Source: Spirochaetae bacterium HGW-Spirochaetae-2 (GTDB taxonomy: Bacteria; Spirochaetota; Spirochaetia; Sphaerochaetales; Sphaerochaetaceae). Taken from it: 64,000 nt of DNA. Numbering within the stretch: the first letter of the stretch is position 1; every line of letters begins with the position of its first letter. The translations under genes and the position numbers were made by a program. Of this stretch, positions 3,609 through 56,074 are shown in pieces. The stretch covers positions 1-64,000 of the forward strand of contig PGXW01000005.1 in assembly GCA_002839355.1 (NCBI GenBank). Reading direction: 5' to 3'. A model generated the notes under the pieces. The model was not told the origin of the DNA. It saw only the letters and a list, made by a program, of their open reading frames with translations, and searched no databases.

Positions 3609-4639
3609 TTGAGGACTATAAAACGGATACTTGTACGGTAGAGGAACTCATTGCTTCACATCCCTATGTCCGGGAATTCTTTGCGATGAACAATCTGCCG
3701 ATGGAAAATGGATATCGGACAATAGCGTCGTATTTCGCAACCTTGCCGTATACACTTCTGGAGGACTTGGGTACACAGCCACCTGTGTTGCTTGGGCGTT
3801 TCCATGCGTTCATGCGAGAAATGGCAAACATCAGGGAACGACAAGGTGTGGACATCAAATCGCTTACCATACGGGGAGGGCGGGACAAGCGAGGAAATGT
3901 TGAGGACATCGAACTGAGAATCGGACTTGGGGATCTGGTGAGTATCGTAGGGCCCACGGGTTCGGGAAAGAGCCGGTTGCTGGCCGATATCGAATGGATG
4001 GCTCAACGCGATACGCCCACCGGTCGCCAAATATTGGTAGACGATGAAATTCCTCCTGCGTCATGGCGGTTCTCTTCGGACCATAAGCTGGTGGCACAAC
4101 TTTCTCAGAATATGAATTTTGTAATGGACGTCAGCGTGGCTGAATTCCTTGTGCTGCATGCGCAAAGCAGGATGATCGACCACTATGATCAAAAGATTGC
4201 TGAGATTATCCGTGCTGCCAACGGACTTTCAGGTGAAGCGTTTGAATTGGACGCTCCCCTCACTTCCTTGAGCGGAGGGCAAGCCAGGGCATTGATGGTG
4301 GCCGATACAGCGTTCCTCAGTGTATCTCCCATTGTATTGATCGACGAGATCGAGAATGCAGGCATTAACAGGACAAAGGCGCTGGCACTCTTGTCGGGGC
4401 AGAACAAGATGGTTCTTATCGCTACCCATGATCCGTTGCTTGCGTTGTCGGCACCGAAACGGATAGTTGTCTGCAATGGGGGTATCATGGCTGTCCTCGA
4501 TACCTCGGATGAGGAAAGGCAGTGCTTGCGACAACTTCAAGCGATGGATGATATCCAGACGGTGTATCGCGACACGTTGCGAAGCGGTGATTCTCTTCGG
4601 ATGTGTAGGGATAGAGCGTGTGGAGGATTTCATATTTAG
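3605..4639 (+). CDS. ABC transporter ATPase with an N-terminal DUF1858/ScdA-N-like domain
   Basis: ATPase partner of the FecCD-type permease, 344 residues. I place the start at a TTG preceded by GGAG and overlapping the GTPase stop (TTGA); an in-frame ATG 75 bases upstream lies inside that gene. Residues 10-75 form an unusual N-terminal region (VEELIASHPYVREFF...) that resembles the small helical DUF1858/ScdA-N domain but lacks its cysteines. The ABC domain follows: Walker A GPTGSGKS (116-123), signature LSGGQA (222-227), Walker B PIVLIDEIEN and the H-loop in IATHD. Length and domain order differ from standard FecE/BtuD ATPases of about 260 residues. The tail overlaps the convergent exporter permease gene by four bases. 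Confidence 0.82.
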   Translation: MIEDYKTDTCTVEELIASHPYVREFFAMNNLPMENGYRTIASYFATLPYTLLEDLGTQPPVLLGRFHAFMREMANIRERQGVDIKSLTIRGGRDKRGNVEDIELRIGLGDLVSIVGPTGSGKSRLLADIEWMAQRDTPTGRQILVDDEIPPASWRFSSDHKLVAQLSQNMNFVMDVSVAEFLVLHAQSRMIDHYDQKIAEIIRAANGLSGEAFELDAPLTSLSGGQARALMVADTAFLSVSPIVLIDEIENAGINRTKALALLSGQNKMVLIATHDPLLALSAPKRIVVCNGGIMAVLDTSDEERQCLRQLQAMDDIQTVYRDTLRSGDSLRMCRDRACGGFHI

Positions 4640-5373
4640 TATATCCAGCGCTTCTTTATATTGTGGGTGCTGAGAAAAAAGAGCAGCCCGCTGAATAATA
4701 CAAGGACCAGGAGGTTTGCTGCCACAGGTATGGAGGCCTCCGAGTTGACGGAGAATCTAAGCAGGTCGGACCCATAGGTCAAGGGAAGAATATAGGAGAG
4801 GGGGCGGATTATTGCAGGCAGGTTCCCAATCGGGATGAAAAGGCCACAGAGGAACATCATGGGAAAGCGAAAGAAATTGGAGAATGTCTGGGCTTCGAAC
4901 ACCTCGTTGACCGACACTGCAATGAACAAGCCAAGGAATGTGGAGGTGATGGCAATGAACAATACCGCAAGGCTGAGGATTCCCCAATGGATTCCCGATA
5001 GGTCTATCATGAAGGAGGCAAATAGTACCGGGATGAAAGCATTGATGATCCCGAACACTATGGCTCCAGTAGTCTTTGCCAGCATGAGCAGATTGAGACT
5101 GATTGGAGAGAGAAGCAACCGTTCAAACGAACGGCTCTTGCGTTCGAAAGTTATGGTCACCGAGAGCATCGAGGTTGTTCCGAACAATATGGAAAGAGCC
5201 ATCACGCCGGGAAGGATCGCCCTGATATCCACCGCCTGTTCAGAGCGCAGGTAGAACATCAATGTCCAAGAGACTGGGAAAATGATTCCCCAGCTGATGT
5301 TTGGTGGTTTTAGATAATAATTTCGCATGTCTTTTTTCAATATACCCCAATAGGCGAGTGTATTGTCGATCAT
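4636..5373 (-). CDS. ABC-2 type transporter permease
   Basis: Integral membrane subunit (245 residues) of an ABC exporter, with about six hydrophobic helices and the ABC-2 pattern near the C-terminus (FFRFPMMFLCGLFIPIGNLP). FERKSRSFERLLLSPIS in the first half is the cytoplasmic coupling helix typical of NodJ/DrrB-like proteins. The gene overlaps its ATPase partner by four bases, so the pair is translated together. The exported substrate is unknown; drug, lipid or polysaccharide are all possible for this family. Confidence 0.88.
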   Translation of the reverse strand: MIDNTLAYWGILKKDMRNYYLKPPNISWGIIFPVSWTLMFYLRSEQAVDIRAILPGVMALSILFGTTSMLSVTITFERKSRSFERLLLSPISLNLLMLAKTTGAIVFGIINAFIPVLFASFMIDLSGIHWGILSLAVLFIAITSTFLGLFIAVSVNEVFEAQTFSNFFRFPMMFLCGLFIPIGNLPAIIRPLSYILPLTYGSDLLRFSVNSEASIPVAANLLVLVLFSGLLFFLSTHNIKKRWIY

Positions 5374-6332
5374 TTCCTTCCTTCCTTTTCCTTTTTGAGT
5401 CGAGCCAGTTCGATGCCGGTGATCTTCACAAACACCTCCTCCAATGAGGGACGGACGAGTCTTGCCTCCCGGACCTTGATGTTCCTGGCATCGAAGAAAT
5501 GCATGAACGGCATGAGGTCCATGGGGACCTTGGATCGTAGGCTGATGGTATGGTCAGACTCTGGAGACATCGATACCATTGGGAATGCGTCCAATAATTC
5601 AGATTGCAAGTGTGTGCCGGAGGCTTCCAACCAGAACTGTAGGACATGTTCCTGCTGGGCCTCTGTGAGCAGGGCTTGGACAGTACTCACTTTAACGACA
5701 CTCCCTCCGACGATGAATCCGATTCTGTCACAGAGACGTTCGGCATCCTCGATGTAGTGCGTGGTAAGAAAGATGGTTGTGCCTTGCTCATTCAGCGTTG
5801 CTATCAATTGCCGGATCTGACGTGCACTCTCGACGTCGATTCCCGTGGTCGGTTCATCCAAGAAGAGAATCCTTGGCTCATGGATTATTCCCGCTGCAAT
5901 GGTGAGTTTGCGTTTCATTCCCTTCGAGTAGGCCTTGAATGGTCGGTTTCCGGTATCGTCGAGTGAGAATTGAGCAAGCAGTTCATGTGCCCGTTGTTCC
6001 CTCTTTCTCTTTTTCATGCCATAGAGGGAAGCACAGAAGACGAGATTCTCGAATCCGCCCATATCGTCGTAGAGATTGCTTTCATCAGGCACTATCCCGA
6101 TGATTCCCTGGACTTTCTTGATATTCCTTACCCCATCCAATCCAGCGATGGTGATGGTTCCCTCGGAGGGTCTTGCCAATCCGGTGAGCATGTTGATGGT
6201 GGTTGTCTTTCCAGCCCCGTTCGGACCGAGGAACCCAAAAATCTCACCTTGTTCCACAAAGAAGTCGATTCCCTTGACTGCCTGGAAGTCCCCAAAGTTT
6301 TTTACCAGGTTGCGTGCTTCTATGATATGCAT
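5370..6332 (-). CDS. ABC-2 exporter ATP-binding protein (DrrA/CcmA type)
   Basis: Cytoplasmic ATPase (320 residues) of the exporter. Walker A GPNGAGKTT (residues 38-46), signature YSKGMKRKL (the KG variant usual in DrrA/NatA proteins), Walker B RILFLDEPTTGID and the H-loop TTHY are all present, followed by a C-terminal extension of about 100 residues typical of the DrrA branch. I chose the ATG beginning MHIIEARNLV because GGAGGAG lies just upstream; an in-frame ATG 54 bases earlier has no ribosome binding site. A palindrome at 6517-6534 may control the pair. Confidence 0.9.
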   Translation of the reverse strand: MHIIEARNLVKNFGDFQAVKGIDFFVEQGEIFGFLGPNGAGKTTTINMLTGLARPSEGTITIAGLDGVRNIKKVQGIIGIVPDESNLYDDMGGFENLVFCASLYGMKKRKREQRAHELLAQFSLDDTGNRPFKAYSKGMKRKLTIAAGIIHEPRILFLDEPTTGIDVESARQIRQLIATLNEQGTTIFLTTHYIEDAERLCDRIGFIVGGSVVKVSTVQALLTEAQQEHVLQFWLEASGTHLQSELLDAFPMVSMSPESDHTISLRSKVPMDLMPFMHFFDARNIKVREARLVRPSLEEVFVKITGIELARLKKEKEGRK

Positions 6333-6516
6333 CTTCTGTTCTCCTCCCCTCGGCAACAATGGTACTGTTGTTCCACATGGTTGCAACCCCGCTTGCCCAC
6401 CTGGGTTTGTGCAGCCGTGAGCAGTTCCATATAGATGCGCCTAAGCTTGTTCCGGATACCTTGTTTTATCCGCAAACGTCTTGCAGTTTTCGAGAGGTTT
6501 GTGCAATGTGAATCCA

Positions 6517-6534
6517 TTTAAGTGTTTACTTAAA
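6517..6534. promoter_or_regulatory. candidate TetR-type operator upstream of the ABC-2 exporter
   Basis: Perfect inverted repeat TTTAAGT-GTTT-ACTTAAA, 185 bases upstream of the exporter ATPase start. Palindromes of this size and AT content are typical targets of TetR-family repressors, which often control such exporters. No TetR gene is seen nearby, so the assignment is inferred. Confidence 0.4.
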
Positions 6535-6628
6535 CAAAATCATAATGCCCTGACATCCACTTGTCAAGTTCCAGAAAGGGGAATGTGGATGAGAATGATT
6601 CTTCACGTTCCGTGAGATAAATCTCCAG

Positions 6629-6763
6629 CTACTTCCCCAGCTTTCCCTTGGACAATATCCGCACGACTTGTTCGAGGTCTTCGCGTGTCTTGACGCTGGG
6701 TGGCTGGTAGTTGTACTTGGTCTGCACGACCTTGATGCGGTAGCCGTTCTCCATTGCCTTGAG
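6629..6763 (-). pseudogene. 3'-terminal fragment of a CMP-Kdo synthetase (kdsB) gene
   Basis: The minus strand encodes about 44 residues matching the C-terminus of the intact kdsB paralogue at 16771-17517, including MENGYRIKVVQTKYNYQPPS and KTREDLEQVVRIL, then a different tail (SKGKLGK) and a stop. Homology ends abruptly at 6763 after the LEQLK region; the first 200 or so residues of the gene are missing. The nucleotide match is close, with only a few differences, so this is a recent duplication remnant or the scar of a recombination with the 16.8-kb copy or a lost third copy. Confidence 0.8.
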
Positions 6764-6858
6764 CTGCTCGCCGGCACGGTGTGCGACCCGTCTCTATTTG
6801 CGACAATCGTCACTGATAAGATGATAGCCGGCTTCCTGCAAAATTACACAAGGGCCGG

Positions 6859-7052
6859 TCCAAAGCGACCGACATTCTCAAGACGAACAAGGGAGTCAAA
6901 CTCGCGACCGAGCTGGTCGGCCTCTACGGCACATTCTTCCACCACGAGGGGGAGACCTCGGCGAAGTCGACGACTATTACGCACGGCTCCGTTCTTCATT
7001 TCCGGATCCAAACCGCAAACAACCCTATGTCCTCCGGGGAAAGAAGTACTGA
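6859..7052 (+). pseudogene. frameshifted C-terminal remnant of an unrecognised gene
   Basis: Two adjoining plus-strand reading frames look like parts of one protein: KATDILKTNKGVKLATELVG followed by LYGTFFHHE, then, after a one-base shift near 6949, GDLGEVDDYYARLRSSFPD and a tail ending PYVLRGKKY and TGA. GC-rich codons here contrast with the AT-rich bases just downstream. I do not recognise the family. With the adjacent kdsB fragment it marks 6629-7052 as a degraded block. The rest of the gap from 6333 to 7244 shows no intact gene. Confidence 0.5.
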
Positions 7053-7244
7053 CCCCGCTTCTTGAACCATCATGTTCGAAGCTTACTGGACCGCCCATTG
7101 TTTTTAAATACATAGAAATGGATAATAATGTAACTAAATATACACCTGATAACCTCAATCCCCATCGTAATGTGATTAAGTGATCACAACAAGAAATACA
7201 ACTATATATGGGTTAAAGAATAAATAAATTCCTCAAATTTTTTA

Positions 7245-7273
7245 TAGACAAGTGACATGTTGTGTTTTATTAT
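7245..7273 (+). promoter_or_regulatory. sigma70-type promoter of the sugar operon
   Basis: TAGACA (7245-7250) and TATTAT (7268-7273) are separated by 17 bases, each one mismatch from consensus. Predicted transcription starts near 7280, just upstream of the palindrome at 7285-7305 and the ribosome binding site of the binding-protein gene. Confidence 0.6.
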
Positions 7274-7284
7274 ATCAGTAATTA

Positions 7285-7305
7285 AAATATCAATAACTGA
7301 TATTT
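7285..7305. promoter_or_regulatory. operator palindrome of the sugar operon (probable ROK repressor site)
   Basis: Perfect inverted repeat AAATATCA-ATAAC-TGATATTT immediately downstream of the predicted transcription start. The same core, ATATCA-N5-TGATAT, occurs at the promoter of the ROK regulator gene at the far end of this operon (16402-16418). A second, more widely spaced TATCAGT/ACTGATA pair overlaps the same stretch. This strongly suggests repression by the ROK protein. Confidence 0.7.
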
Positions 7306-7319
7306 AAAAGGAGGAGTTT

Positions 7320-8630
7320 ATGAAACGATTTGTACTCGTTCTCTTGTGCGTCTTAGTGGTCTTTGCCCCATCATTATTTGCACAAGGCCAAAAAGCGGCT
7401 TCCGAACCAGACGGAAGGACCGTCATTACATTCAGATCCTGGAGTCCTGTGGTGGCAACTACCGAGAAGATGATTGCTGCTTTTGAAGCGAAACACCCCA
7501 ACATCAAGATTGATGCAACTATTTTCAACTATCCTGAATATATAGTTGATCTGCAGACAAGAGCCCAGTCCAATACCATGCCTGACATCATCGGTCTAGA
7601 ACCTGGTGCTATGACCCAGCAATACCGGAAATATCTAATGCCGGTTCAGGATGTAGTGATTAAATATTGGGGCGAAAACTGGAAGGACAAGTTCCATCCG
7701 ATTGGATTGGACCAAGCCCGGTTGGGAAATCCAAAAGGTGACGAGAACTTCTATGGATTACCTGTTTTGGTCCAGACGATCAATATGTGGTATACCATTC
7801 CTGTATTGGAGGAGGCCGGACTCGAACCTCCCAAGACGTACGATGATCTGTTGAAGATGCGCGATTATTTTAAGAACAAGGGAATTGCACCGATGATGGT
7901 TGGTGCGATCGATGGTTGGTTGCGTCGTGATATCTATATGCAGATTATTCATAACATTGCTCCGGGATCGATCTATCAAGCCGAAGAAGGTAAAGCCAAG
8001 TTTACCGACGCTCCATTCGTAGAAGCCATGCGGGTGTGGAAGCGATTGTTTGACGACAGGATTATCCAGGATGGAGCTCTTGGACTCAGCGCATACCCAG
8101 GGTCGCAGGAGTTGATTGAGGCTGGTAGAGCTGCGACATTCCCCATGGGTGCATGGTGGATGCAAATGGCAGGCAATCCGAATCCACCACCGCTTTCCCA
8201 AGGGTTGGTGGGCTACGCGCCAATGATTTTCCCCGATGTATCGGGTAACGGGCAATCGAAGGATCTCCTCGGGGGTATCGATGTCATGTTGGGAGTAACG
8301 AAGGCTGCCGTAGGTAAGGAGGAGGCAATCCAGGTCTTTGTGGATTTCATTGCTGGAGATGCTGCCCAAGCGCTAATCAATACGTTCAACGATATTCCTG
8401 CGATCAAAGGCATGGCTCCCGAAGACAAGTACTTCGAGTCAGACAATCAACGGGAAGTATGGCGAATCCTTTCCGAAGAATGGATGCCGAACGTGAAATA
8501 TCCAAGACAGCTCAGAAGTCCTGAAATCATCCAAGCACTCGAAGATGCCTTGGCTGCGGTTGCAAGTGGCCAACTGACACCTGAAGCTGCGATGCAAAAG
8601 GTTCAAGCAGTCTGGAAACCACTATCATAG
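7320..8630 (+). CDS. sugar ABC transporter substrate-binding protein (family 1)
   Basis: Extracellular solute-binding protein (436 residues) for a carbohydrate. Signal peptide residues 1-22 end in SLFA-QG, a signal peptidase I-type site. The mature protein starts with VITFRSWSPV and has family 1 features such as IIGLEPGAMTQQY and NMWYTIPVLEEAGLEPP (the usual YNK-like strand). A perfect AAGGAGG precedes the ATG. Two MalF/MalG-type permeases follow but no dedicated ATPase, so a shared MsiK/UgpC-type ATPase elsewhere is expected. Sugar identity is unknown; the kinase and aldolase downstream imply a sugar, sugar alcohol or sugar acid that is phosphorylated inside the cell. Confidence 0.92.
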   Translation: MKRFVLVLLCVLVVFAPSLFAQGQKAASEPDGRTVITFRSWSPVVATTEKMIAAFEAKHPNIKIDATIFNYPEYIVDLQTRAQSNTMPDIIGLEPGAMTQQYRKYLMPVQDVVIKYWGENWKDKFHPIGLDQARLGNPKGDENFYGLPVLVQTINMWYTIPVLEEAGLEPPKTYDDLLKMRDYFKNKGIAPMMVGAIDGWLRRDIYMQIIHNIAPGSIYQAEEGKAKFTDAPFVEAMRVWKRLFDDRIIQDGALGLSAYPGSQELIEAGRAATFPMGAWWMQMAGNPNPPPLSQGLVGYAPMIFPDVSGNGQSKDLLGGIDVMLGVTKAAVGKEEAIQVFVDFIAGDAAQALINTFNDIPAIKGMAPEDKYFESDNQREVWRILSEEWMPNVKYPRQLRSPEIIQALEDALAAVASGQLTPEAAMQKVQAVWKPLS

Positions 8631-8663
8631 TCTTGCTTTGGCACGCGTTTGCGTTCGAAGTGG

Positions 8664-8690
8664 GGGTGGGGAAAATCTTTTCCCCATCCC
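8664..8690 (+). promoter_or_regulatory. intercistronic stem-loop after the sugar-binding protein gene
   Basis: GGGTGGGGAAAA and TTTTCCCCATCCC face each other across a two-base loop, with a single bulge. No poly-T run follows. It sits between the binding-protein and permease cistrons, where such hairpins commonly stabilise the upstream message or partly terminate transcription. Confidence 0.6.
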
Positions 8691-8772
8691 AAGAATGTGA
8701 CTCGGCAGGCACCATCTGGCAACCTGTATCCTAATCCCTGCATGTGAAACATACAGTCGACAAGGTGGGAAG

Positions 8773-9669
8773 ATGAATAGTCAAAGAACCAATAGAGCTG
8801 TACAACAAGTCGGATTACTTTTTATTGCACCGGCGATGATTCTGTTTGTAGTGTATGTTTTATACCCGATCGGATATATCGTTCTGAACAGCCTGTATGA
8901 ATGGGATGGCATCAATGAAAGGGTCTTTGTCGGAATCCAGAATTACCGGCATATGTTTTTCGAAGATGAAATATTTCTCATCTCATTGCGAAACGTGACT
9001 TATTGGATTTTCCTGACAATATTTCCCCAAATGTTCCTTGGTTTCATATTTGCCTATATCTTGAACCATGATATCGGGGGAAGGAATATTGCACGGGCAA
9101 TCATCTACATGCCAGCAATTATATCTCCTGTTGTAATTGGTATCGTATGGCAACGTATTTTAAATCCATTTGGTGGGCTTCTCGCTGATCTAGGATACAA
9201 GACTGGTCTGACTTTTCTGGCTCAGCCCTATATCTCGGATCATAAAATGGCAATTTTCGCTGTTATCGCGGTAAATGTCTGGCAATGGACCGGTTGGTCA
9301 ATGTTGCTGTATCTGGCAGGTTTACAGTCTATCAATGAAGAAATCTTCGAATCGACACGGATCGAGGGTGTCGGGAAGTGGCAGGAAATCCGATTCATCG
9401 TATGGCCTATGCTCAAGGGGACACACCTGACACTAATCCTATTGGGAGTCATTGGAGCTTTGCAAACTTTCGACTTGGTCTATTCGTTGACGAACGGTGG
9501 GCCGAACAATGCAAGTCAAATGCTTTCCACCTATATATTCCTACGGAGTTTCCGTTTGCAAGGAATGGGTTACGGGTCCGCAATGTCCGTGTTCACGTTG
9601 GTGTTGGCTCTTGTGTTGAGCCTTTTCCAGATTAAAGTGTTAGGCGCGAAATTTCAGGTTGCCGAGTAG
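8773..9669 (+). CDS. sugar ABC transporter permease, MalF type
   Basis: Inner-membrane permease (298 residues) with six predicted helices. The cytoplasmic EAA loop near residues 193-212 reads EEIFESTRIEGVGKWQEIRF, matching the EAA---G coupling motif that docks the ATPase. The N-terminus (LLFIAPAMILFVVYVLYPI) is typical of MalF/UgpA proteins. It pairs with the MalG-type permease 14 bases downstream. Confidence 0.92.
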   Translation: MNSQRTNRAVQQVGLLFIAPAMILFVVYVLYPIGYIVLNSLYEWDGINERVFVGIQNYRHMFFEDEIFLISLRNVTYWIFLTIFPQMFLGFIFAYILNHDIGGRNIARAIIYMPAIISPVVIGIVWQRILNPFGGLLADLGYKTGLTFLAQPYISDHKMAIFAVIAVNVWQWTGWSMLLYLAGLQSINEEIFESTRIEGVGKWQEIRFIVWPMLKGTHLTLILLGVIGALQTFDLVYSLTNGGPNNASQMLSTYIFLRSFRLQGMGYGSAMSVFTLVLALVLSLFQIKVLGAKFQVAE

Positions 9670-9683
9670 GGAAGGGGTCATAC

Positions 9684-10523
9684 ATGCGATTCAATCAAAA
9701 CCAATATCATATCAAGGTGCTGTATATCTGTGCGATTGTCGTTGCGACACTGCTTTGGCTGGTTCCGATAGCCATGATGCTCAGCGTCTCTCTCATGCCT
9801 CCTGATGTACGTTCTCCTTCGTTCGGTGGAATATTCCTGCCCCGATACTCAATGTACAACTACAATTTGATTTTCAACGAAGTGCCGATGTTCCGCTATT
9901 TCCTCAACAGTGTGGCAATAACTGTTCCTTCGGTACTGATGGTCACATTTTTTTCTTCACTTGCCGCATATGCATTCTCTCGGTTGCGTTTCTTTGGAAG
10001 AGATACGTGGTTCCTGTTCCTGTTGTTGACGCTTATGCTGCCAATTCCGACTTTGGTGATTCCATTGTTCCAGATCAGCAAGACATTGCACATGTACAAC
10101 ACGCATTGGGGCTTGATCCTTCCCTATACGGCTTTAGGTATTCCGTTCGCGGTAATCATATTTAAAAGCTATTTCTCCAGTTTTCCCACAGACCTTGAGA
10201 ATGCCGCGAAGATAGATGGGTGTGGTCCTTGGAAAATCTATCGGAAAATCATGTTGCCATTGAGTACACCTTCCATGTCTGTTGTGATCATCTGGCAATC
10301 CATGAAATCCTGGAACGAATTCTTATTGGCGTTGGTTACGATTGATAAGAACAGTGTGAAACCATTGCCTTTGGTTCCGTTGATCTATAGCGGGCAATAC
10401 ATGTCTCGGCCAGGTGCCATGTTTGCTGTGCTTACAGTCATGACTATCCCTGTATTGGCTCTATATATCTTCATGCAAAGGTACTTTATGAGTGGAATGA
10501 CTAGTGGTGCCTTAAAGGGGTGA
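9684..10523 (+). CDS. sugar ABC transporter permease, MalG type
   Basis: Second permease (279 residues), MalG/UgpE branch. About six helices, with the EAA motif near residues 170-189 (TDLENAAKIDGCGPWKIYRK). It starts at an ATG preceded by GGAAGGGG and ends five bases before the kinase gene. Together with the preceding permease it forms the membrane channel. Confidence 0.92.
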   Translation: MRFNQNQYHIKVLYICAIVVATLLWLVPIAMMLSVSLMPPDVRSPSFGGIFLPRYSMYNYNLIFNEVPMFRYFLNSVAITVPSVLMVTFFSSLAAYAFSRLRFFGRDTWFLFLLLTLMLPIPTLVIPLFQISKTLHMYNTHWGLILPYTALGIPFAVIIFKSYFSSFPTDLENAAKIDGCGPWKIYRKIMLPLSTPSMSVVIIWQSMKSWNEFLLALVTIDKNSVKPLPLVPLIYSGQYMSRPGAMFAVLTVMTIPVLALYIFMQRYFMSGMTSGALKG

Positions 10524-10527
10524 GCAG

Positions 10528-12036
10528 ATGAGTATTATGGGATTGGATATCGGCACCAGTGGGTGCAAGGTACTGGCAGTTTCGGAGGAAGGAAAGATAT
10601 TGGCCCGAGCGGGGGCCGAATATCCTGTCGATTCACCTGACCAAGGGCGATTCGAGTTGGATCCAATTGAGGTATGGCACGAACTCAAATCTTGTATCCG
10701 TCAATGCAATGCACTCTGTAAGGATAATCCTGTGACCGCCTTATCCTTTTCGACACAGGGAGAGGCAGTGATTCCCGTGGATGCCATGATGCATCCTCTT
10801 GACAAGAGTCCGGTAAGTGCGGATATACGTGGTCTTGGTTATGTGGCTTCATTACGGTCGATACTGGATGAGCAACAAATTTTTAACCTAACCGGTCAAA
10901 CATTTGATTCTATCCATTCGATATTCAAGATCAAATGGTGGATGGATCATCACAAGCGGGTCAGGGAAAATTGTTGGAAATATTGTTGTTTCGATACATT
11001 CATATTGTTGTGTTTGGGGCTACCTCCAGTTACCGACAGATCGATGGCTGCAAGGATGCTACTGTATGACGTGAAACGGAAGTCCTGGTCATCTACTTTA
11101 CTTGGATTTGCTGGGATAACTGAGAACCAATTGCCAGAGATCATCGATTCTGGGAGTGTTATTGGTATCCTTTCGTGTGATGTAAGTCTTGACTTGGGTT
11201 TCACCGTTCGTCCTAAAGTTGTCTCGGGTGGTCATGATCAGCCATGTTCTGCATTTGGCAATGGTTTGATACGTAAAGGTGCAAGCTATTCGGTAGGTAC
11301 CACAGAATGTATTTCAATAGTACAAAGCAAGGAACAAGCTCCTCACCTGGTGAGGTATCCGACATATCCACATGTGTGCCCAGGGTCCATGGTAACACTC
11401 GTTGGTAGCCAGACGGGCACTCGATTCTTTTCTTGGTTGGGTAGTGTTTTGTTTGCAGGTTACAATGGGGATATCTCATGCAAATTGGAGGATTTCTACA
11501 ATCTGTTGCGTACGGTTCCTTCAGATCTAGAAACTTCAGTGCAAGTGATCCCTCACCTTTCCGGAGGAAGCAATCATTATGATAATCCCCACGCCAAAGC
11601 CCTCGTGTATGGGTTTACCTACAACTCGACACAACAAGAGTTACTCAAGGCGGTGATGGAAGGAATAACTTTCGAGCAATACTTAGGATTCATCAGATTC
11701 AAAGAATTGCATGGTTGTAGCGAGAATGATTGTGGATTGGTCGCCACTGGAGGTGGTGTCCGGTTTAAAAATTGGATATCGATGAAATCTGACATTTTCG
11801 CCTTACCGATCCAATTGATGTCGGTCCATGAAGCAGGTTGTATTGGATCGGCTATGCTAGCAGGATGGGGAACTGGGGTATTCGAATCCCTGGAACAAGC
11901 CGTCCGACAATGTGTGAAAAAAGAAATTATCGTTCGGCCGAATGATGGTTTGGCTCCTTATTACACTAAAAAGGTGAAACAGTATGATTTATTATACCAG
12001 TCAATCAAAGAATTGGCTCAAGAGGAGATAGTATGA
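10528..12036 (+). CDS. FGGY-family carbohydrate kinase
   Basis: Cytoplasmic sugar kinase (502 residues) of the xylulokinase/glycerol kinase family that would phosphorylate the imported sugar. The N-terminal phosphate-1 motif MGLDIGTSGCKVLAV (residues 4-18) is intact; GHDQP near residue 235 and the adenosine-binding ATGGGVRFKNWISMKSDIF near 407-425 complete the FGGY fold. Its stop overlaps the aldolase start by four bases. Which sugar is used cannot be decided; pentulose, tetritol or branched sugars are all found in this family. Confidence 0.88.
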   Translation: MSIMGLDIGTSGCKVLAVSEEGKILARAGAEYPVDSPDQGRFELDPIEVWHELKSCIRQCNALCKDNPVTALSFSTQGEAVIPVDAMMHPLDKSPVSADIRGLGYVASLRSILDEQQIFNLTGQTFDSIHSIFKIKWWMDHHKRVRENCWKYCCFDTFILLCLGLPPVTDRSMAARMLLYDVKRKSWSSTLLGFAGITENQLPEIIDSGSVIGILSCDVSLDLGFTVRPKVVSGGHDQPCSAFGNGLIRKGASYSVGTTECISIVQSKEQAPHLVRYPTYPHVCPGSMVTLVGSQTGTRFFSWLGSVLFAGYNGDISCKLEDFYNLLRTVPSDLETSVQVIPHLSGGSNHYDNPHAKALVYGFTYNSTQQELLKAVMEGITFEQYLGFIRFKELHGCSENDCGLVATGGGVRFKNWISMKSDIFALPIQLMSVHEAGCIGSAMLAGWGTGVFESLEQAVRQCVKKEIIVRPNDGLAPYYTKKVKQYDLLYQSIKELAQEEIV

Positions 12037-12671
12037 AGCAACAGGTATCGGTAGTTCCGTTCGCAATGAAATCCCATGTGCTGTCCGTAGCGAAACAGTT
12101 GATGGAGTTGGGGATTAATCCGCTCACGCAAGGAAATATCAGTGAAAAGGATCCCTCATCTGGACTTATTGTGATTACACCCCATGATTTTTCTTATGCG
12201 GAGATGCAGGAGGAAGATCTGGTGGTCGTTGATACTGATGGCAATGTGGTGGAAGGGACGCGGGAACCATCGGCTGAGACGGCGGTTCATTGTACAGTGT
12301 ATCGGGAACGTCCCCATATTCTAGGGGTTATCCATTCGGAACCGATCTATGCAAATGCATTCGGGATAATCGGAAAATCGATTGAACCGGTATTCGTGAA
12401 CATGGCGATCGATGTTGGAGGGGCTGTTCCGGTCATGCCTTTCGCCGATAGTGGAAACAAGGATTTCGGCTACAAGATGCTCGGAATCATGGGAGATCGG
12501 AATGCGATTATCTGGGCTAACCATGGAATATTGGCTATGGGGAAGACACTCGATAAGGCTTTTCACTGTACGGTCACGGTAGAGCTCGGTGCAAAAATGT
12601 ATCATCTCGCACTCTGTCATGGCGAACCGTATGTCATTCCTGAAAAAAAGATTGCTTCATTGATTGGGTGA
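12033..12671 (+). CDS. class II aldolase/adducin family protein with an HxE metal site
   Basis: Zinc-dependent aldolase or epimerase of 212 residues, expected to cleave or isomerise the phosphosugar made by the kinase. Visible landmarks are TQGNISEKD (residues 32-40), the catalytic-type Glu82 in PSAETAVH with His86, and ANHG near residue 165, which carries a metal-binding His. Unusually, the HTH pair found in L-fuculose-phosphate aldolase is His101-Ser-Glu103, so one histidine ligand is replaced by glutamate; the DNA reads CAT TCG GAA. This may shift metal or substrate preference. The gene overlaps the kinase by four bases. Confidence 0.85.
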   Translation: MKQQVSVVPFAMKSHVLSVAKQLMELGINPLTQGNISEKDPSSGLIVITPHDFSYAEMQEEDLVVVDTDGNVVEGTREPSAETAVHCTVYRERPHILGVIHSEPIYANAFGIIGKSIEPVFVNMAIDVGGAVPVMPFADSGNKDFGYKMLGIMGDRNAIIWANHGILAMGKTLDKAFHCTVTVELGAKMYHLALCHGEPYVIPEKKIASLIG

Positions 12672-12687
12672 AGCGGAAGAGGTTGTA

Positions 12688-14913
12688 ATGAAACGTGGAC
12701 CGTTGGGAATTGAAAACTTCGGTATACAAATGGAATCTGAAGCTACCGATGTACGAGGACTTTCAGACATAGAGCATCTGCAGATACTGTATGCATCGCA
12801 TCTTATACACCAATGTGAGCAAGTCCTAACCGAGTTGCAGAAGAAAGGGTTGTTGTGGGGTGCACTGCATACCAGTTTTGGCATGGAGACTTCAGCATCT
12901 GCGGCACTGCAGGCTTTGGGGAAAAATTCCAGGATTAACTCCACCCATAGGGGGCACCATCATGTGTTGGCCAAAGGGTTGTTCTCCCTTATGGATGAAA
13001 ACTGGAATCCATTGGAACCTGGTTCCGCCAAGGAGTTTGTGCCGGTTGTTGAGTTCTTGAACCAAACAATTGCAGAAATCTTGGGATTGAAGATAGGGTG
13101 TTGCAGTGGTCGTGGGGGCTCGATGCATTTATATGATCCTTCCGTTGGTGTCCATGGAACCAACGGGATCGTGGGAGGTGCAATCCCCTCGGCGGTTGGA
13201 TTGGCTTTTGGAGCGAAACACCAGAAACGTGGGGAAATCATCATGAGTTTCTTTGGTGATGGGGCGTCCAACCAGGGGACTTTCCACGAATCGTGCAATC
13301 TTGCTGCAATCTATAAGCTTCCGATAATATTCTTTTTGGAAAACAATCAGTATGCTGTCGGAACCAAATCTCGTGATGTTTGTTCAGGATATTGTTTGGC
13401 CGCACGTGGGATCTCCTATGGCTTGCACGCGTACCAGGTGTACGCCGATGATCCGATAGCCATCCATATGGTTGTCAGGGAGGCTAGGCAGCACCTGCTT
13501 TCCGGTGGACCACCGGTTTTAATCGAAGCGGTTGGGTATCGTCCGGTCCATCACGACTCACCGTTACCCGGTAGCGCATATGGATATAGGACAAAAGAGG
13601 AAGAAGCGTATTGGGCGGTTAAAAGCGGGTATGAAATATACCCGAAATTACTGATGGATTTCGGGATTGTCAGGCAATCCCAATTGGATGGGATTGATGC
13701 CCATATTGCTTCTTTACTCGATCAAGCGATAACTCCTTTGGTTGGTAAAGAAAAGGATTCCATCGATGTGAAACTTTGGCCAGTGCAGGATGTGGAGACC
13801 CGTTCAGCCTTCTTCTTTGATAATCCAAACGTCGATCCTTTCGATCGTACGGTAAATAATGGTATGAGAAGTAGTGGGAAACAACTTGAGACATGCAATT
13901 ATGTGTCGGATTTGGTTTGGAAATCGCAAGCGATGCGTGAAACATCGTATGTACAAGCTATTGCAAATGTGATCGGTCGATGGTTGGCGAAGGATTCCGA
14001 AGTCTATGTATGGGGTGAGGATGTCGCCAATTTCGGCCAAGGTCCATATGGAGCAACAAAGAACTTGATGCATGCTTTTCCAAACAGAGTGATCAATACT
14101 CCAATTTCGGAATCTGGTTTTGTCGGTATGGCATTGGGTGCCTGCATGATGGGACTCAAGCCTATTGTTGAAATCATGTTTCCCGATTTCTTGCTTGTAG
14201 CAGCGGACCAGTTGTTCAATCAGATAGGCAAAGCACGCTACATGTACGGCGGGGCTGTCGATTTGCCGATGGTTGTGCGAACAAGGATTGCAACAGGAAC
14301 TGGTATGGGTCCACAACATAGCATGGATCCCACTGCATTGTTTTCATTGTTTCCCGGATGGCGCATTATTGCTCCATCAAATCCTGCCGATTATATCGGA
14401 TTGTTCAACACTGCCATGCGAAGCAATGATCCGGTTTTGGTTTTAGAACACCAGCAATTGTATAGAGAGAAGGGTACCGTTCCTGAAAATATGTTGGATT
14501 ATTGTATTCCCTTTGGTTCTGCAAAAGTAGTGTTGGAGGGTAGTGATGTGACATGTGTGGCATATGGTGGAATGGTACAAAAATTGCAAGCTGCCGCGTG
14601 CATTCTGAGTGAAAGTGTCGCTTTGGAAATTATCGACCTCCGTTCCCTGGATGCTCCGAGTATAGATTATGAAACGATTTGTGCCTCTGTCGGCAAGACA
14701 GGTTGGTTGTTGTTTTTTGAGGAGGCTCCCATGAGCCAAAGCATCGGTAAGCAGATTATCTATCATCTGCAGAATGGTACCGATTTGAAATTGAAGGGAA
14801 AGTCCCGGGTGGTGAGTTCCGTGGACGTCCCCATGCCGGTTTCCAGACCTTTGGAGTTCGATTGCATAACGAATGTCGACGATATTGTTCGATATTTCAT
14901 GAATTGGAGATGA
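12688..14913 (+). CDS. fused E1 alpha-beta thiamine diphosphate-dependent dehydrogenase
   Basis: A single 741-residue chain joining the alpha and beta halves of a pyruvate/acetoin/branched-chain-type E1 component. The alpha part has GRGGSMHL and the thiamine diphosphate motif starting GDGASNQGTFHE at residues 190-201 and closing with ENN at 218-220. The beta part begins near residue 417 (TSYVQAIANVIGRWL) and has VWGEDVANFGQGPYG and PISESGFVGMALGACMMG. It should decarboxylate a 2-oxo acid and hand the acyl group to a lipoyl domain, which the next gene supplies. I chose the ATG with AGAGG upstream; an in-frame TTG 24 bases earlier overlaps the aldolase gene. No E2 acyltransferase or E3 gene is adjacent. 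The substrate may come from the aldolase step. Confidence 0.86.
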   Translation: MKRGPLGIENFGIQMESEATDVRGLSDIEHLQILYASHLIHQCEQVLTELQKKGLLWGALHTSFGMETSASAALQALGKNSRINSTHRGHHHVLAKGLFSLMDENWNPLEPGSAKEFVPVVEFLNQTIAEILGLKIGCCSGRGGSMHLYDPSVGVHGTNGIVGGAIPSAVGLAFGAKHQKRGEIIMSFFGDGASNQGTFHESCNLAAIYKLPIIFFLENNQYAVGTKSRDVCSGYCLAARGISYGLHAYQVYADDPIAIHMVVREARQHLLSGGPPVLIEAVGYRPVHHDSPLPGSAYGYRTKEEEAYWAVKSGYEIYPKLLMDFGIVRQSQLDGIDAHIASLLDQAITPLVGKEKDSIDVKLWPVQDVETRSAFFFDNPNVDPFDRTVNNGMRSSGKQLETCNYVSDLVWKSQAMRETSYVQAIANVIGRWLAKDSEVYVWGEDVANFGQGPYGATKNLMHAFPNRVINTPISESGFVGMALGACMMGLKPIVEIMFPDFLLVAADQLFNQIGKARYMYGGAVDLPMVVRTRIATGTGMGPQHSMDPTALFSLFPGWRIIAPSNPADYIGLFNTAMRSNDPVLVLEHQQLYREKGTVPENMLDYCIPFGSAKVVLEGSDVTCVAYGGMVQKLQAAACILSESVALEIIDLRSLDAPSIDYETICASVGKTGWLLFFEEAPMSQSIGKQIIYHLQNGTDLKLKGKSRVVSSVDVPMPVSRPLEFDCITNVDDIVRYFMNWR

Positions 14914-14914
14914 T

Positions 14915-15157
14915 ATGCGTATTCCTATGCCCCAAATCGGTGATTCACAGGACCCATATGAAGTGCTCGAGTGGTGTGCCCATACGGGTGATCTCGTGGA
15001 GGAAGGTATGGTACTTTGTACTGTCGAAGTCGGAAAGGCAACGGTGGATGTCGGTGCTCCTACTTCGGGGAGGTTGCAAACCATTTTCGTGAAAGAAGGG
15101 CAGGAGGTGATGCCGGGAACAGTTCTTTGCGAACTGTCTGCAAATCTGGCTTTCTAG
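14915..15157 (+). CDS. stand-alone lipoyl-domain protein
   Basis: An 80-residue protein that is only a lipoyl/biotinyl domain. The hairpin motif VEVGKATVDV puts the modified lysine at residue 41; the surrounding E-x-x-K-A pattern matches lipoyl rather than biotin domains, which read MKM. The N-terminus (MRIPMPQIGDSQDP) looks like the start of an E2 protein, but there is no subunit-binding or acyltransferase domain. It starts one base after the E1 gene stop. It probably serves as the mobile acceptor for the E1 enzyme, using acyltransferase and lipoamide dehydrogenase from elsewhere, or a different acceptor reaction. Its 3' end overlaps the convergent ROK gene by four bases. Confidence 0.88.
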   Translation: MRIPMPQIGDSQDPYEVLEWCAHTGDLVEEGMVLCTVEVGKATVDVGAPTSGRLQTIFVKEGQEVMPGTVLCELSANLAF

Positions 15158-16374
15158 GTCAATACTTCCATGAGTATTCTGTGCATGACAGTATGTATGA
15201 CACTTATAGCCGCACCATATGACGGATTGGTTGTTTCTTCATCGTAAAATACAATGTCTTTCGGACCGCCGAGCCAAGAGCCTTCTTGCACGTTATGCTT
15301 GAAGGTTTGTTGGAGTTGGGCGTGCCATTGCTCTACAACCCAACCACCGATGTACAACGTGTGTAGATCGAAGATGTTCTCGATGGTAATGGTAGTATTC
15401 ATCAGGAGCTCGAATACAAGCTGGCGTACTTCTTCCGACTGCTCTTCGGAAAGCCGTTTGTGCATTTCCCCAAGATCATCAAGGTCGATGTCGTAGGTTG
15501 TACTAATATGGTGCAGGATTGCTTTCGAAGATAAGAAGGATTCCAAGCATTGTTGCTTTCCGCAGTAACAGGGGAGTCCTGAAATCTTGGTGTAGCCAAG
15601 GATGGGAATGTGTCCGATCTCTCCGGCAAGGCCACGTTCTCCCTTTATATACACACCGTTGTTCATCACAGCCATACCTACACCGTCAGATATGTGAAGG
15701 AACGCGAAGTTCTTGGGGTGGGAATTGTCGGTTCTGATAATCGAATTCGCACGCGCAGTGATGTCGTGTTCGATGAAGACTTGCTTGATAAACGGTAAGG
15801 ATTGTTGGAAAAAATGAAAGTCGACAGATCTGACGGAATGTACTTTGGGCGAGGTGATCCATATCAGGTTGTCCCGATCCAGCGCGCCGGTAAGGGCGAA
15901 TACCAATGTGGTAATCGATTCCTCGGATTTATCCGCGTCTTCAAGCACTTGATAGAAAATATTCCGTACCAATCGATACAGGTTAATATTTGTCAGTTCT
16001 TCTTGGAGGATGTAGGCTTTCTTAAAGAGTATCCTTTTCCCCAAGTCGATGATAGTGCTGTTGATGGATGTGGGCGTGATTTCCAGACCCAGTATCAAGT
16101 GATCGGTGTCGGTAAATTTGTAAATGGTCGTTTTTGGACCCGGCCGGTACAGTTGCCGGTCGGGATCGTTGTCTTCCATAATTATACCGAACCTACTGAG
16201 ATCGTTGATGATATCAGAGCATGAGGCCCAGGAAATCCTGGTGGTATCGTGTATGGTCCGTTTAGTCGTAAGATCATTCCTTATTGCGTTAAGTATGGTA
16301 AGATAGGTGTCGAAGCGCATCTTTTTTCTGGTAACGAGCAATGGCGTATCCTTTTTTTGTTCTGTATCTTTCAA
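15154..16374 (-). CDS. ROK-family (NagC/XylR-like) transcriptional repressor
   Basis: DNA-binding sugar-sensing regulator of 406 residues. The N-terminal 90 residues hold a winged helix (TKRTIHDTTRISWASCSDII...LSRFGII). The rest is a sugar-kinase-like ROK fold with GERGLAGEIGHIPI and the zinc motif CYCGKQQCLES. The start is TTG with GGAAG upstream; an ATG 54 bases inside the gene is a weaker alternative. It is convergent with the sugar operon and shares the ATATCA-N5-TGATAT palindrome with the operon promoter, so it most likely represses both the operon and itself until the sugar or its phosphate binds. Confidence 0.88.
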   Translation of the reverse strand: MKDTEQKKDTPLLVTRKKMRFDTYLTILNAIRNDLTTKRTIHDTTRISWASCSDIINDLSRFGIIMEDNDPDRQLYRPGPKTTIYKFTDTDHLILGLEITPTSINSTIIDLGKRILFKKAYILQEELTNINLYRLVRNIFYQVLEDADKSEESITTLVFALTGALDRDNLIWITSPKVHSVRSVDFHFFQQSLPFIKQVFIEHDITARANSIIRTDNSHPKNFAFLHISDGVGMAVMNNGVYIKGERGLAGEIGHIPILGYTKISGLPCYCGKQQCLESFLSSKAILHHISTTYDIDLDDLGEMHKRLSEEQSEEVRQLVFELLMNTTITIENIFDLHTLYIGGWVVEQWHAQLQQTFKHNVQEGSWLGGPKDIVFYDEETTNPSYGAAISVIHTVMHRILMEVLT

Positions 16375-16400
16375 GGTGTTCTTCCGGTCTTTTAGGATGG

Positions 16401-16454
16401 TATATCATACATTGATATATCGAACATGATATGGCAACTGGCTATACAAGTCAA
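16401..16454 (-). promoter_or_regulatory. promoter and two operator palindromes of the ROK gene
   Basis: On the minus strand TTGACT (16449-16454) and TATCAT (16426-16431) are 17 bases apart, a good sigma70 promoter. TATATCA-TACAT-TGATATA (16401-16419) covers the predicted transcription start, and a variant ATATC-N6-GATAT (16417-16432) covers the -10 box. The first has the same core and spacing as the site at 7285-7305, which indicates autorepression. Confidence 0.68.
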
Positions 16455-16634
16455 TCTTTCCGCTCAATATGGATTGAGGTCACAAAGAGTTTGAAGATTT
16501 TTCAAATCCAATGGAGAAGATCAAATCGTATGAAGTTATTTTTCAAGCAGTGCAGTAGGAAAAGCCTTTCCCCACGCACTTGGTGGCGGGTGGTCGCTTG
16601 AAAAGTGAGTAAGGAAGACGACGATGAATAATTT

Positions 16635-16770: not shown

Positions 16771-17517
16771 TCACCCTTGCGAAGACAATATCCGCATGAC
16801 CTGTTCGAGGTCTTCGCGTGTCTTGACGCTGGGGGGCTGGTAGTTGTACTTGGTCTGCACGACCTTGATGCGGTAGCCGTTCTCCATGGCCTTGAGCTGC
16901 TCGAGCGACTCGGTGAGCGAGAGGGGCGTATTGGGCAACGTGACATACTTGAGCAGGAAATCCTTGCGGAAGCCGAACACGCCGATATGCTCGTGCATGG
17001 CATGGTATTCGCGGTTGCGGGGGTAGGGGATCGGCGCACGGGAGAAGAGCATGGCATTGCCCTCGATATCGACGACGACCTTGACCGCATTGGGATTGTC
17101 GATACGCGACTGGTCGGTAATGCGGTAGCAGCTGGTGGTCATGACCTGCTTCTTGTCGGTGACAAGGGCGATGATCACTTCGTCGATGATCTCGGGAATG
17201 AGCAGCGGTTCGTCGCCCTGGATATTCAGCACATAGTCGCAATGATAGGAGCGGACGACCTCGGCGATACGGTCGCTTCCGGTCATGTGCTCGGCAGAGG
17301 TCATGACGACCTTGCCGCCGAACGCAGTGACCGCATCGAAGACGCGCTGGTCGTCGGTGGCGACCAGCAGGTCGTCCAACAAGGTGGACAGCGAGGCGAT
17401 CTCGTAGACACGCTGCACCATGGGCTTGCCGCAGATATCGCACAACGGTTTGCCGGGCAAGCGGGTCGAGTCGTAGCGGACAGGAATCACGCCCAGGATG
17501 GTTTTCTTCTTAGTCAT
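16771..17517 (-). CDS. kdsB: CMP-Kdo synthetase-like cytidylyltransferase (copy 1)
   Basis: 3-Deoxy-manno-octulosonate cytidylyltransferase family enzyme (248 residues) that would transfer CMP from CTP to a 2-keto sugar acid. The nucleotide-binding start GVIPVRYDSTRLPGKPL varies slightly from the canonical IPARYxSxRLPGKPL; VLNIQGDEPLI and the C-terminal PPSVKTREDLEQV are conserved. It is the last gene of the TRAP operon and overlaps the lyase gene by four bases, with no ribosome binding site of its own. A truncated relative of its 3' end lies at 6629-6763. With a second kdsB in the same operon, the substrate may be Kdo or a related ulosonic acid. Confidence 0.88.
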   Translation of the reverse strand: MTKKKTILGVIPVRYDSTRLPGKPLCDICGKPMVQRVYEIASLSTLLDDLLVATDDQRVFDAVTAFGGKVVMTSAEHMTGSDRIAEVVRSYHCDYVLNIQGDEPLLIPEIIDEVIIALVTDKKQVMTTSCYRITDQSRIDNPNAVKVVVDIEGNAMLFSRAPIPYPRNREYHAMHEHIGVFGFRKDFLLKYVTLPNTPLSLTESLEQLKAMENGYRIKVVQTKYNYQPPSVKTREDLEQVMRILSSQG

Positions 17518-18446
17518 GGTATCTGTGCATTCTCACGGTTTTTCCACGTTTGAGTCAATGCCCACATCTGTTCGATCTCCAGCTGCCGGTTGCGCGTAAA
17601 GGCACCGGGATCCCTGGAGCGCGTGTGGTAGCCGAAACCGAGGCGTTCCAACGTCCCGAGGTAGTACTTCGCGTTGGTCGGGTATATCTGGTTCTCGACA
17701 AGCGATAGACACCCGATAACATCCTGGATCCTCTGGGCCTTCTCCATGTCGGTGTGGAAGGCGCCCATGAGTGCCTGGTACAGTTCGGGGTGGAAGTTTG
17801 CCATGACCCCGGAGAATCCGTGGGCCCCTATGAGCAGGCTCTCCAGGAGCGTGGCGGAATTGGCGTTGAACAGCTTGAACTTTGTTCCTTGCATTGCGAC
17901 AAGTTTCGCCTGCATCTGCTCCACTGAGCAGCTGGTGTCCTTGAGGAACTGGAAATCCCCGATATCCAACAACGAAGTGAGCACCTGGGGTGACAGCAAC
18001 CGCTTATAGGGGTAGGGACACTCGTAGATTCCCAGGGGGAAGCCGGCAATGGAATCGGCCACCTCCTTCGCATTGCGCAGGAACGTCCGGTCATCCTCGT
18101 CTTCGGTGGCGAAGCGGTTGGAGATGAACACATAGGCGTCGATCCCTTCCTGGGCAATAGCGGCCGCCTCACGCTGTTGCGTCAAGATATCGTCGGCGGT
18201 ATGGCCCGAGGCGATCAGGGACAGGCCTTTGGGCTTGTTCTTCACAATGAAGCGCAGCAGCTGAAGCTTCTCCTCGAAGGAGAGGAAGAATATCTCGCTG
18301 GATTGGCACAGGGCGAATATGCCGTCGACCTGGTGGTCGGCATACCACTGCAGCAACCCTTCCACCCCCGCATAGTCGATCCGGTTGTCGTCGGTGAAGG
18401 GGGTGATCATGGTGACATGGATGCCATTGGGGAGTGTCTTGTCCAT
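17514..18446 (-). CDS. DapA/NanA-family lyase or synthase (class I aldolase)
   Basis: Schiff-base aldolase of 310 residues in the dihydrodipicolinate synthase/N-acetylneuraminate lyase superfamily. The catalytic Tyr141 (IYECPYPYKR) and Schiff-base Lys169 (FLKDTS) are present. The carboxylate-binding G-x-T-G-E motif of DapA and NanA is replaced by CQSSE (residues 47-51), a branch whose substrate is not established to my knowledge. Between two cytidylyltransferase genes and a TRAP importer, a role in cleaving or forming a 2-keto-3-deoxy sugar acid is likely. It overlaps the neighbours by one and four bases, so the genes are translationally coupled. Confidence 0.85.
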   Translation of the reverse strand: MDKTLPNGIHVTMITPFTDDNRIDYAGVEGLLQWYADHQVDGIFALCQSSEIFFLSFEEKLQLLRFIVKNKPKGLSLIASGHTADDILTQQREAAAIAQEGIDAYVFISNRFATEDEDDRTFLRNAKEVADSIAGFPLGIYECPYPYKRLLSPQVLTSLLDIGDFQFLKDTSCSVEQMQAKLVAMQGTKFKLFNANSATLLESLLIGAHGFSGVMANFHPELYQALMGAFHTDMEKAQRIQDVIGCLSLVENQIYPTNAKYYLGTLERLGFGYHTRSRDPGAFTRNRQLEIEQMWALTQTWKNRENAQIP

Positions 18447-19189
18447 CAGTGGGCCTCTTGCTGTGCCAGCATGATCCGCTCCACCTGCTCCAGGTCCTCC
18501 TGGGTGTCGACGCTGAGGGCGTTGTAGGGGAAGCGGGTCTTGACGATCTTGATAGCGTACCCATGTTCGAGCACGCGCATCTGTTCCAACGATTCGGTGG
18601 CCGCCAGCGGCGTCTCCTCGAGGGTGATATAGGTCATGAGGAAGTCCTTGGTATAGACGTAGATGCCGATATGCTCGTAGGCGGCGAAGCGCTGGGTGTA
18701 GCGGGGATAGGGGATCAGCGAACGGGAGAAGAGCAGGGCGAAGCCGTGGAGATTCGAGACGACCTTCACGACGTTCGGATTCTGCAAGGCCTGCTCGTCG
18801 TGGATCTCGTGGCAGCCGGTGACCATGACCAGCGACGGGTCGGCCAGCATCGCGGCGACGAACTCGTCGATGATCGCCGGCGTTATCAGCGGTTCGTCAC
18901 CCTGGATGTTCACCACGATGTCGCAATCCATGTGGGCGGCGACCTGGGCTATCCGGTCGCTACCGGTCTTGTGGTCAACCGAGGTGAGGAAGGCCTCTCC
19001 TCCGAAGGCCTCGACCGCCGCGACGATGCGCTGGTCGTCGGTGGCCACCACGACCCTGTCCAATGTCGCAGCCTGCATGGCCTGTTCGTATACATGTTGG
19101 ATCATGGGTTTGCCGCAGATCATCTTCAATGGTTTGCCCGGGAGCCGCGACGAGCCGTAGCGTGCGGGTATGATGCCGATAGTAGCCAT
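18446..19189 (-). CDS. kdsB: CMP-Kdo synthetase (copy 2)
   Basis: Canonical 3-deoxy-manno-octulosonate cytidylyltransferase (247 residues). It carries IIPARYGSSRLPGKPL near the N-terminus, VVNIQGDEPLI mid-protein and EDLEQVERIM at the end. I prefer the ATG beginning MATIGII because GGAG sits nine bases upstream; an ATG three codons earlier abuts the same GGAG directly. It differs from copy 1 over most of its length, so the pair is an old duplication and probably differs in substrate. It ends on the start codon of the lyase gene. Confidence 0.9.
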   Translation of the reverse strand: MATIGIIPARYGSSRLPGKPLKMICGKPMIQHVYEQAMQAATLDRVVVATDDQRIVAAVEAFGGEAFLTSVDHKTGSDRIAQVAAHMDCDIVVNIQGDEPLITPAIIDEFVAAMLADPSLVMVTGCHEIHDEQALQNPNVVKVVSNLHGFALLFSRSLIPYPRYTQRFAAYEHIGIYVYTKDFLMTYITLEETPLAATESLEQMRVLEHGYAIKIVKTRFPYNALSVDTQEDLEQVERIMLAQQEAH

Positions 19190-19204
19190 ATTCCTCATCT
19201 CCTC

Positions 19205-41885: not shown

Positions 41886-41894
41886 GATGGTGTC

Positions 41895-43852: not shown

Positions 43853-43861
43853 GGGAATACA

Positions 43862-53183: not shown

Positions 53184-53190
53184 GGACGCT

Positions 53191-56064: not shown

Positions 56065-56074
56065 TTGTAATCAA

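Follow-up and report, generated by a model that had tools for sequence, protein, structure and literature searches.

A sugar operon of Spirochaetae bacterium HGW-Spirochaetae-2 contains the first half of a pyruvate-dehydrogenase-like machine: an E1 enzyme dependent on thiamine diphosphate (ThDP), with its alpha and beta parts fused in one chain, and directly after it a free-standing lipoyl-domain protein of 80 residues. The operon lies within the first 64,000 nucleotides (nt) of contig PGXW01000005.1; this whole 64-kb stretch is referred to below as the window. The arrangement recurs in scattered bacteria, and the exact set of importer, FGGY-family kinase, class II aldolase, fused E1 and lipoyl protein was not found elsewhere in the searches made, which sampled the public genomes rather than covering them; full-text literature gave nothing relevant for the gene set, and nothing on apulose enzymes turned up under D-apiose. 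The remark in an earlier note on this DNA, that no pathway with exactly this set was known, is thus upheld within that sample.

Every gene named in the earlier note is present where it was placed, in the same order and on the same strand, with Pfam matches far over the cut-offs (Table 1). The note passed over the convergent gene for a ROK-family repressor and its operators, and it did not mention that the CUT1 importer has its substrate-binding protein (SBP) and two permeases in the operon but no ATPase gene. Its description of an E1 with a lipoyl carrier lacking the acyltransferase (E2) and the lipoamide dehydrogenase (E3) is borne out: across the whole window, no open reading frame for an E2, an E3 or an alpha/beta-hydrolase acyltransferase was found, nor an E2 of the AcoC type. 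The kinase and aldolase genes overlap by 4 nt and the gap between the E1 and lipoyl genes is 1 nt, so that the genes look like one translationally coupled unit; GGAG precedes the ATG of the lipoyl gene. The lipoyl gene in turn ends against the convergent ROK gene, the two stop codons overlapping by 4 nt, which leaves no further operon gene downstream.

The fused E1 and the adjacent lipoyl protein

The fold and chemistry class of the E1 can be taken as secure from its sequence. The E1_dh, Transket_pyr and Transketolase_C domains follow one another in a single chain, and alignment to solved E1 structures shows conservation of the ThDP motif (GDGASNQG...NN), the catalytic Glu (ISES) and the catalytic His (PQHS). 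The gene is where the earlier note put it, with a start more likely at the ATG at 12688 (741 residues) than at the TTG at 12664, since several related proteins align from that methionine and AGAGG stands ahead of it. As in most of its relatives, HRGHH is found where human pyruvate dehydrogenase (PDH) has YRAHG. At 14 positions where 38 relatives show at least 93% conservation the protein has a different residue; among these changes are Q74M, within the GQE motif, and Y548M, adjoining the catalytic QHS (residues counted from TTG 12664). Acyloin cleavage or non-oxidative decarboxylation would fit as well as the oxidative decarboxylation of one aldolase product that the earlier note suggested.

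Among known systems, acetoin dehydrogenase (AcoA/AcoB, AcoC, AcoL) resembles the pair in the homology of its E1 alpha and beta subunits, in a THRGH-type motif at the site of the human YRAHG and in the transfer of activated aldehyde from E1 to lipoyl; in the window, however, the E1 is a single chain, the lipoyl domain is separate, equivalents of AcoC and AcoL are absent, and kinase and aldolase genes are present. Alignment places the target lysine of the lipoyl protein at K41, within EVGKATVDV, and its best matches in the PDB are the lipoyl domains of E2 proteins. Compared with a complete complex, the locus has the ThDP, Glu and His signatures of the E1 and the lipoyl lysine, and no cognate E2 or E3 encoded with the E1.

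The assembly, reported as 99.8% complete with 3.2% contamination, does hold parts that could be borrowed, in keeping with the suggestion in the earlier note that housekeeping subunits might serve the carrier. One contig (C67) encodes an AceE-type E1 with E2 and E3, and another (C71) E2, E3 and a further fused E1 of 818 residues; the two full E2s and two E3s of the genome are found only there, beside their own E1s. There are also two proteins of the lipoate-ligase/transferase family. Two MalK-type ATPases are encoded on contigs C51 and C4, as if the importer, too, were built to borrow a part; both its ATPase and the E2/E3 functions could be supplied from elsewhere in the genome. Two other loci touch on the same machinery. 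Separate E1 alpha and beta genes on contig C52 (L022, 7107-9220) have no E2 or E3 beside them, and a catalytic-only E2-like protein with an HDLVDG motif is encoded amid unrelated genes on contig C53 (L024, 4802-5602). The latter, of 266 residues, was considered as the missing E2 and rejected on its 23% identity to PDH E2, its unrelated neighbours and the lack of an exact operator near it.

Related E1 enzymes in other bacteria

A class-wide search with the E1 covered 395 genomes and gave 23 other positive genomes, at 43-53% identity; no relative was found in two genus-mates, and a scan of the contig collection returned no relative above 40% identity. In a tree calculated by a quick method, in which the window E1 sits on a long end branch, it groups as sister with 15 of the class's stand-alone fused E1s, with a support of 97 in the Shimodaira-Hasegawa-like approximate likelihood ratio test (SH-aLRT). 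Profile searches of the 23 nearest-relative loci (L088-L110) detected no lipoyl domain or E2 core, several of the contigs being short and the absence therefore a local one. The earlier note had treated the missing E2 as remarkable in itself, a view that is not supported in that form: the nearest relatives occur with neither lipoyl protein nor E2 nearby.

The neighbours of these stand-alone E1s differ from those in the window. An aldehyde dehydrogenase and an Ldh_2 protein are encoded beside the E1 in two loci (L089, L108) and an aldehyde dehydrogenase in a third (L091), while an aldehyde:ferredoxin oxidoreductase is found in L090, L094 and L096, the last also with a lactate-racemase homologue. 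A GHMP kinase and a nucleotidyltransferase accompany the E1 in L100, L102, L104 and L027, and L110 has a divergent class II aldolase. The neighbour genes of L094, L108 and in part of other loci were identified by similarity or by eye. Instead of being components of dehydrogenases, the fused E1s of this family may act on their own as 2-oxo acid decarboxylases or lyases.

The next clade, at about 40% identity, comprises E1s from plasmids and contigs of Pseudomonadota and Actinomycetota (for example NZ_CP044072, NZ_CP125871 and NC_021295), related single-chain enzymes annotated as alpha-ketoacid dehydrogenase subunit alpha/beta. Unlike the window, these operons carry a full E2 (16 of the 17 loci), often with E3 and SDR/VOC genes, and none combines the E1 with an importer, FGGY kinase and aldolase. 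The earlier note would have counted an E2 with the same neighbourhood in related genomes against its idea, and this is partly the case, with an E2 near the E1s of this clade and a detached E2 core in Paeniglutamicibacter.

An E1 with a separate lipoyl protein of 77-86 residues recurs at six loci outside the window, so that the absence of an E2 is less of an oddity than the earlier note supposed; these E1s fall on several branches away from that of the window, and the splitting of lipoyl domain from E2 therefore appears to have occurred more than once. On pAt15955 the pair is found with an alpha/beta hydrolase, a lipoyl synthase and a xylulokinase, and in Rhizobium indicum with an alpha/beta hydrolase and a sugar kinase. 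Both are sugar operons with an ABC importer and a sugar kinase in which, as in the window, a free lipoyl protein comes after a fused E1; they differ in the E1, which is 28% identical and of another branch, in the alpha/beta hydrolase that comes next and in the lack of a class II aldolase. In Paeniglutamicibacter quisquiliarum (NZ_JAHRED010000013, L039) a fused E1, a lipoyl protein of 85 residues and an FGGY kinase stand in a row. These three are shared with the window, but the E1 has 32% identity, there is a detached E2 core at a distance of 2.9 kb, and no class II aldolase was noticed in the locus. Natrialba magadii also has a detached E2 core with its E1 and free lipoyl protein, while for Sphingobium RAC03 and Haladaptatus salinisoli no acyltransferase is annotated near the pair.

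A possible mechanism and its alternatives

The reading that we tentatively prefer, and would not yet call probable, is that the E1 loads the free lipoyl carrier and that housekeeping E2 and E3 unload it, within a ROK-repressed operon devoted to one sugar. The importer, energized by a shared MalK-type ATPase, would take up the sugar, the FGGY kinase would phosphorylate it, and the class II aldolase would cleave the product, giving triose phosphate plus a short fragment. This fragment would be the source of a 2-oxo acid or acyloin, from which the E1 would form a ThDP adduct, going on to reductively acylate the lipoyl group presumed to be carried on K41, through a contact between E1 and carrier; the acylated carrier would then diffuse to the E2 and E3 of contigs C67 and C71, to yield acyl-CoA and reoxidized lipoyl. 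The operon has the look of a module specific to one substrate, its importer drawing on a common ATPase and its E1-lipoyl pair on a common E2 and E3.

This scheme draws on the gene families, the conserved active-site and lipoyl-lysine motifs, the absence of E2 and E3 from the window, the two operators placed by predicted promoters, and the E2, E3, lipoate-ligase-family and MalK-type ATPase genes elsewhere in the genome. The recurrence of E1 and free lipoyl protein by sugar kinases on pAt15955, in Rhizobium indicum and in Paeniglutamicibacter also supports it. Lipoyl groups can be supplied in trans across complexes, as in Corynebacterium glutamicum, where OdhA uses the lipoyl of AceF (PMC10415282). 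There, too, an E1 is served by a lipoyl domain outside its own polypeptide, although what is borrowed there is the lipoyl domains, the E2 core being fused to the E1, and what would be borrowed here is the E2, the operon having a lipoyl domain of its own. Several observations weigh against the scheme. Domains for binding E1 or E3 are absent from the 80-residue protein; no exact match to the predicted ROK operator lies near any E2 or E3 gene in the whole genome; the 14 departures from conserved positions mean that function cannot be transferred to the E1 from its relatives; and since the loci of its nearest relatives, as far as they extend, show no lipoyl protein or E2, the window E1 may not need the carrier.

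This last point leads to the main rival, which we consider unlikely, if deserving of attention: that the E1 works without lipoyl, as a ThDP lyase or decarboxylase that releases an aldehyde or ligates two fragments, as its nearest relatives may do, and that the lipoyl protein is an accessory. Its sister position to the 15 stand-alone enzymes speaks for this, as do the aldehyde-oxidizing genes at sister-type loci, which fit a route from 2-hydroxy acid through 2-oxo acid and aldehyde to acid. A precedent is provided by the E2-free, E1-like alpha-KADH2 enzymes, which ligate C2 units onto sugars (PMC12247030), but judged by gene content the adjacent lipoyl gene would argue against membership of the window E1 in that group. 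The operon, moreover, has no aldehyde-oxidizing gene, and it has a dedicated lipoyl gene, complete with attachment lysine, 1 nt after the E1 gene, where the reverse is often true in the sister clade. It is also conceivable, and in our view improbable, that E1 and lipoyl protein form a complete unit with a new acceptor, in which no classical E2 would cleave or transfer the acyl-lipoyl and a partner different from E3 would reoxidize the dihydrolipoyl. The small alpha/beta hydrolase that comes after the lipoyl gene, in the place of an E2, on pAt15955 and in Rhizobium indicum, the Sphingobium and Haladaptatus pairs and the operator search, which places no E2 or E3 in the regulon, are in favour of this; yet the operon offers no candidate acceptor gene, and the full E2s and E3s of the genome make a novel acceptor unnecessary. 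A related proposal, to which we give similarly little credence, is that oxidative C-C cleavage by the two proteins took the place of the relatives' aldehyde-oxidizing enzymes in a new kinase-aldolase sugar pathway, the acyl-lipoyl being passed on to something that is no classical E2.

That the locus is decayed or mosaic, an operon acquired by transfer whose E2 and E3 were lost and whose E1-lipoyl step is idle, seems very unlikely. It would account for the 120-nt kdsB fragment in the left flank, 97% identical to the kdsB of the right flank, for the long end branch of the E1, and for the lack of close kinase, aldolase or E1 relatives in the genus-mates and of any aldolase match at 1e-40 in 101 relatives. 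Against it, none of the eight frames is broken and they lie close together, the arrangement of promoter and operator is undisturbed at either end and the catalytic residues of the E1 are conserved.

If the E1 and its free carrier do use shared E2 and E3, tethering is not essential to the classic multienzyme complex, and two genes suffice for a sugar operon to plug into it; if the E1 uses another acceptor, this would be new chemistry in sugar breakdown. Either way, the comparison reveals a family of E2-less fused E1s by aldehyde-oxidizing genes, of a type automatically annotated as pyruvate or alpha-ketoacid dehydrogenase.

Operon layout, regulation and flanking DNA

Table 1. Genes and predicted control sites of the operon, in window coordinates.
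Feature	Position	Strand	Basis or remark
Predicted sigma-70-like operon promoter, TAGACA-17-TATTAT	7245..7273	+	10/12 consensus match only
Predicted ROK operator ATATCAATAACTGATAT	7287..7303		Just downstream of -10, ahead of SBP start
SBP of CUT1 ABC importer	7320..8630	+	PF01547 2e-22, PF13416
ABC permease 1, UgpA-like	8773..9669	+	PF00528
ABC permease 2, GlcU/MalG-like	9684..10523	+	PF00528
FGGY-family sugar kinase	10528..12036	+	PF00370 3e-49, PF02782 5e-16
Class II (FucA/AraD-type) aldolase	12033..12671	+	PF00596 1e-41
Fused E1 alpha-beta ThDP enzyme	12664..14913 (likely start ATG 12688)	+	PF00676, PF02779, PF02780
Free-standing lipoyl-domain protein, 80 residues	14915..15157	+	PF00364 5e-17
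ROK-family repressor, convergent with operon	15154..16374	-	PF00480 3e-29
Predicted second ROK operator ATATCATACATTGATAT, at ROK gene promoter	16402..16418		Pattern match
Predicted ROK-gene promoter, TTGACT-17-TATCAT	16426..16454	-	10/12 consensus match only

The palindrome ATATCA-N5-TGATAT occurs at two sites in the window, against 0.01 expected, and these are its only exact copies in the 3.6-Mb assembly, where the reversed-pattern control gave none. Each copy sits directly downstream of a promoter-like site matching 10 of 12 consensus positions, the -10 element ending at 7273 on the plus strand and at 16426 on the minus strand. The operon promoter is among the three best such sites (10/12) in 7050-16600 and the sole one on the plus strand, in a scan in which the overall number of promoter-like sites was no higher than chance. 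The simplest reading of these sequences is that the ROK repressor controls both the operon and its own gene, its binding to the two sites being predicted; with the operator confined genome-wide to these two promoters, the locus would be one self-contained regulon.

The sugar itself is not assignable from the kinase, which scores 210 bits with the XylB model against a cut-off of 380 bits and reaches no equivalog cut-off; there was no plasmid match at 1e-40, and the best match in the phylum is only 32% identical, so that no substrate can be transferred. The aldolase shows the motifs PSAET, VIHSEP and ANHG when aligned to L-fuculose-phosphate aldolases, keeping the catalytic Glu and two of the three zinc His, with an unusual Glu in place of the second, the zinc ligands being assigned as in FucA. 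The nearest solved structures to the SBP include binders of xylo- and chitin-oligosaccharides; these matches are weak, and no ligand was named from them.

The kdsB fragment upstream of the operon (6651-6770) derives from the 3' end of the gene and corresponds to 16784-16903 of the intact kdsB downstream, and this direct repeat on either side suggests past recombination or insertion. In the two genus-mates the left-flank DNA (3530-6650) gave nothing but short, weak matches, which showed no empty site. On the minus strand at 16771-19198, a DapA/NanA-family protein scoring under every equivalog cut-off is encoded between two kdsB-type cytidylyltransferase paralogues, possibly a locus for unusual sugar-acid activation. 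Farther on, at about 25-54 kb, lies a cluster of surface-polysaccharide genes, in which we recognized by eye, from the translation, a split transketolase-like pair (28980-30802) and, likewise by eye, two dTDP-sugar (RfbA/RfbB-like) gene sets (41001-44404 and 52305-54267). Adjoining this cluster at 55078-58272, consecutive reading frames resemble, again by eye, a KAS III, a short-chain reductase and a carboxyltransferase.

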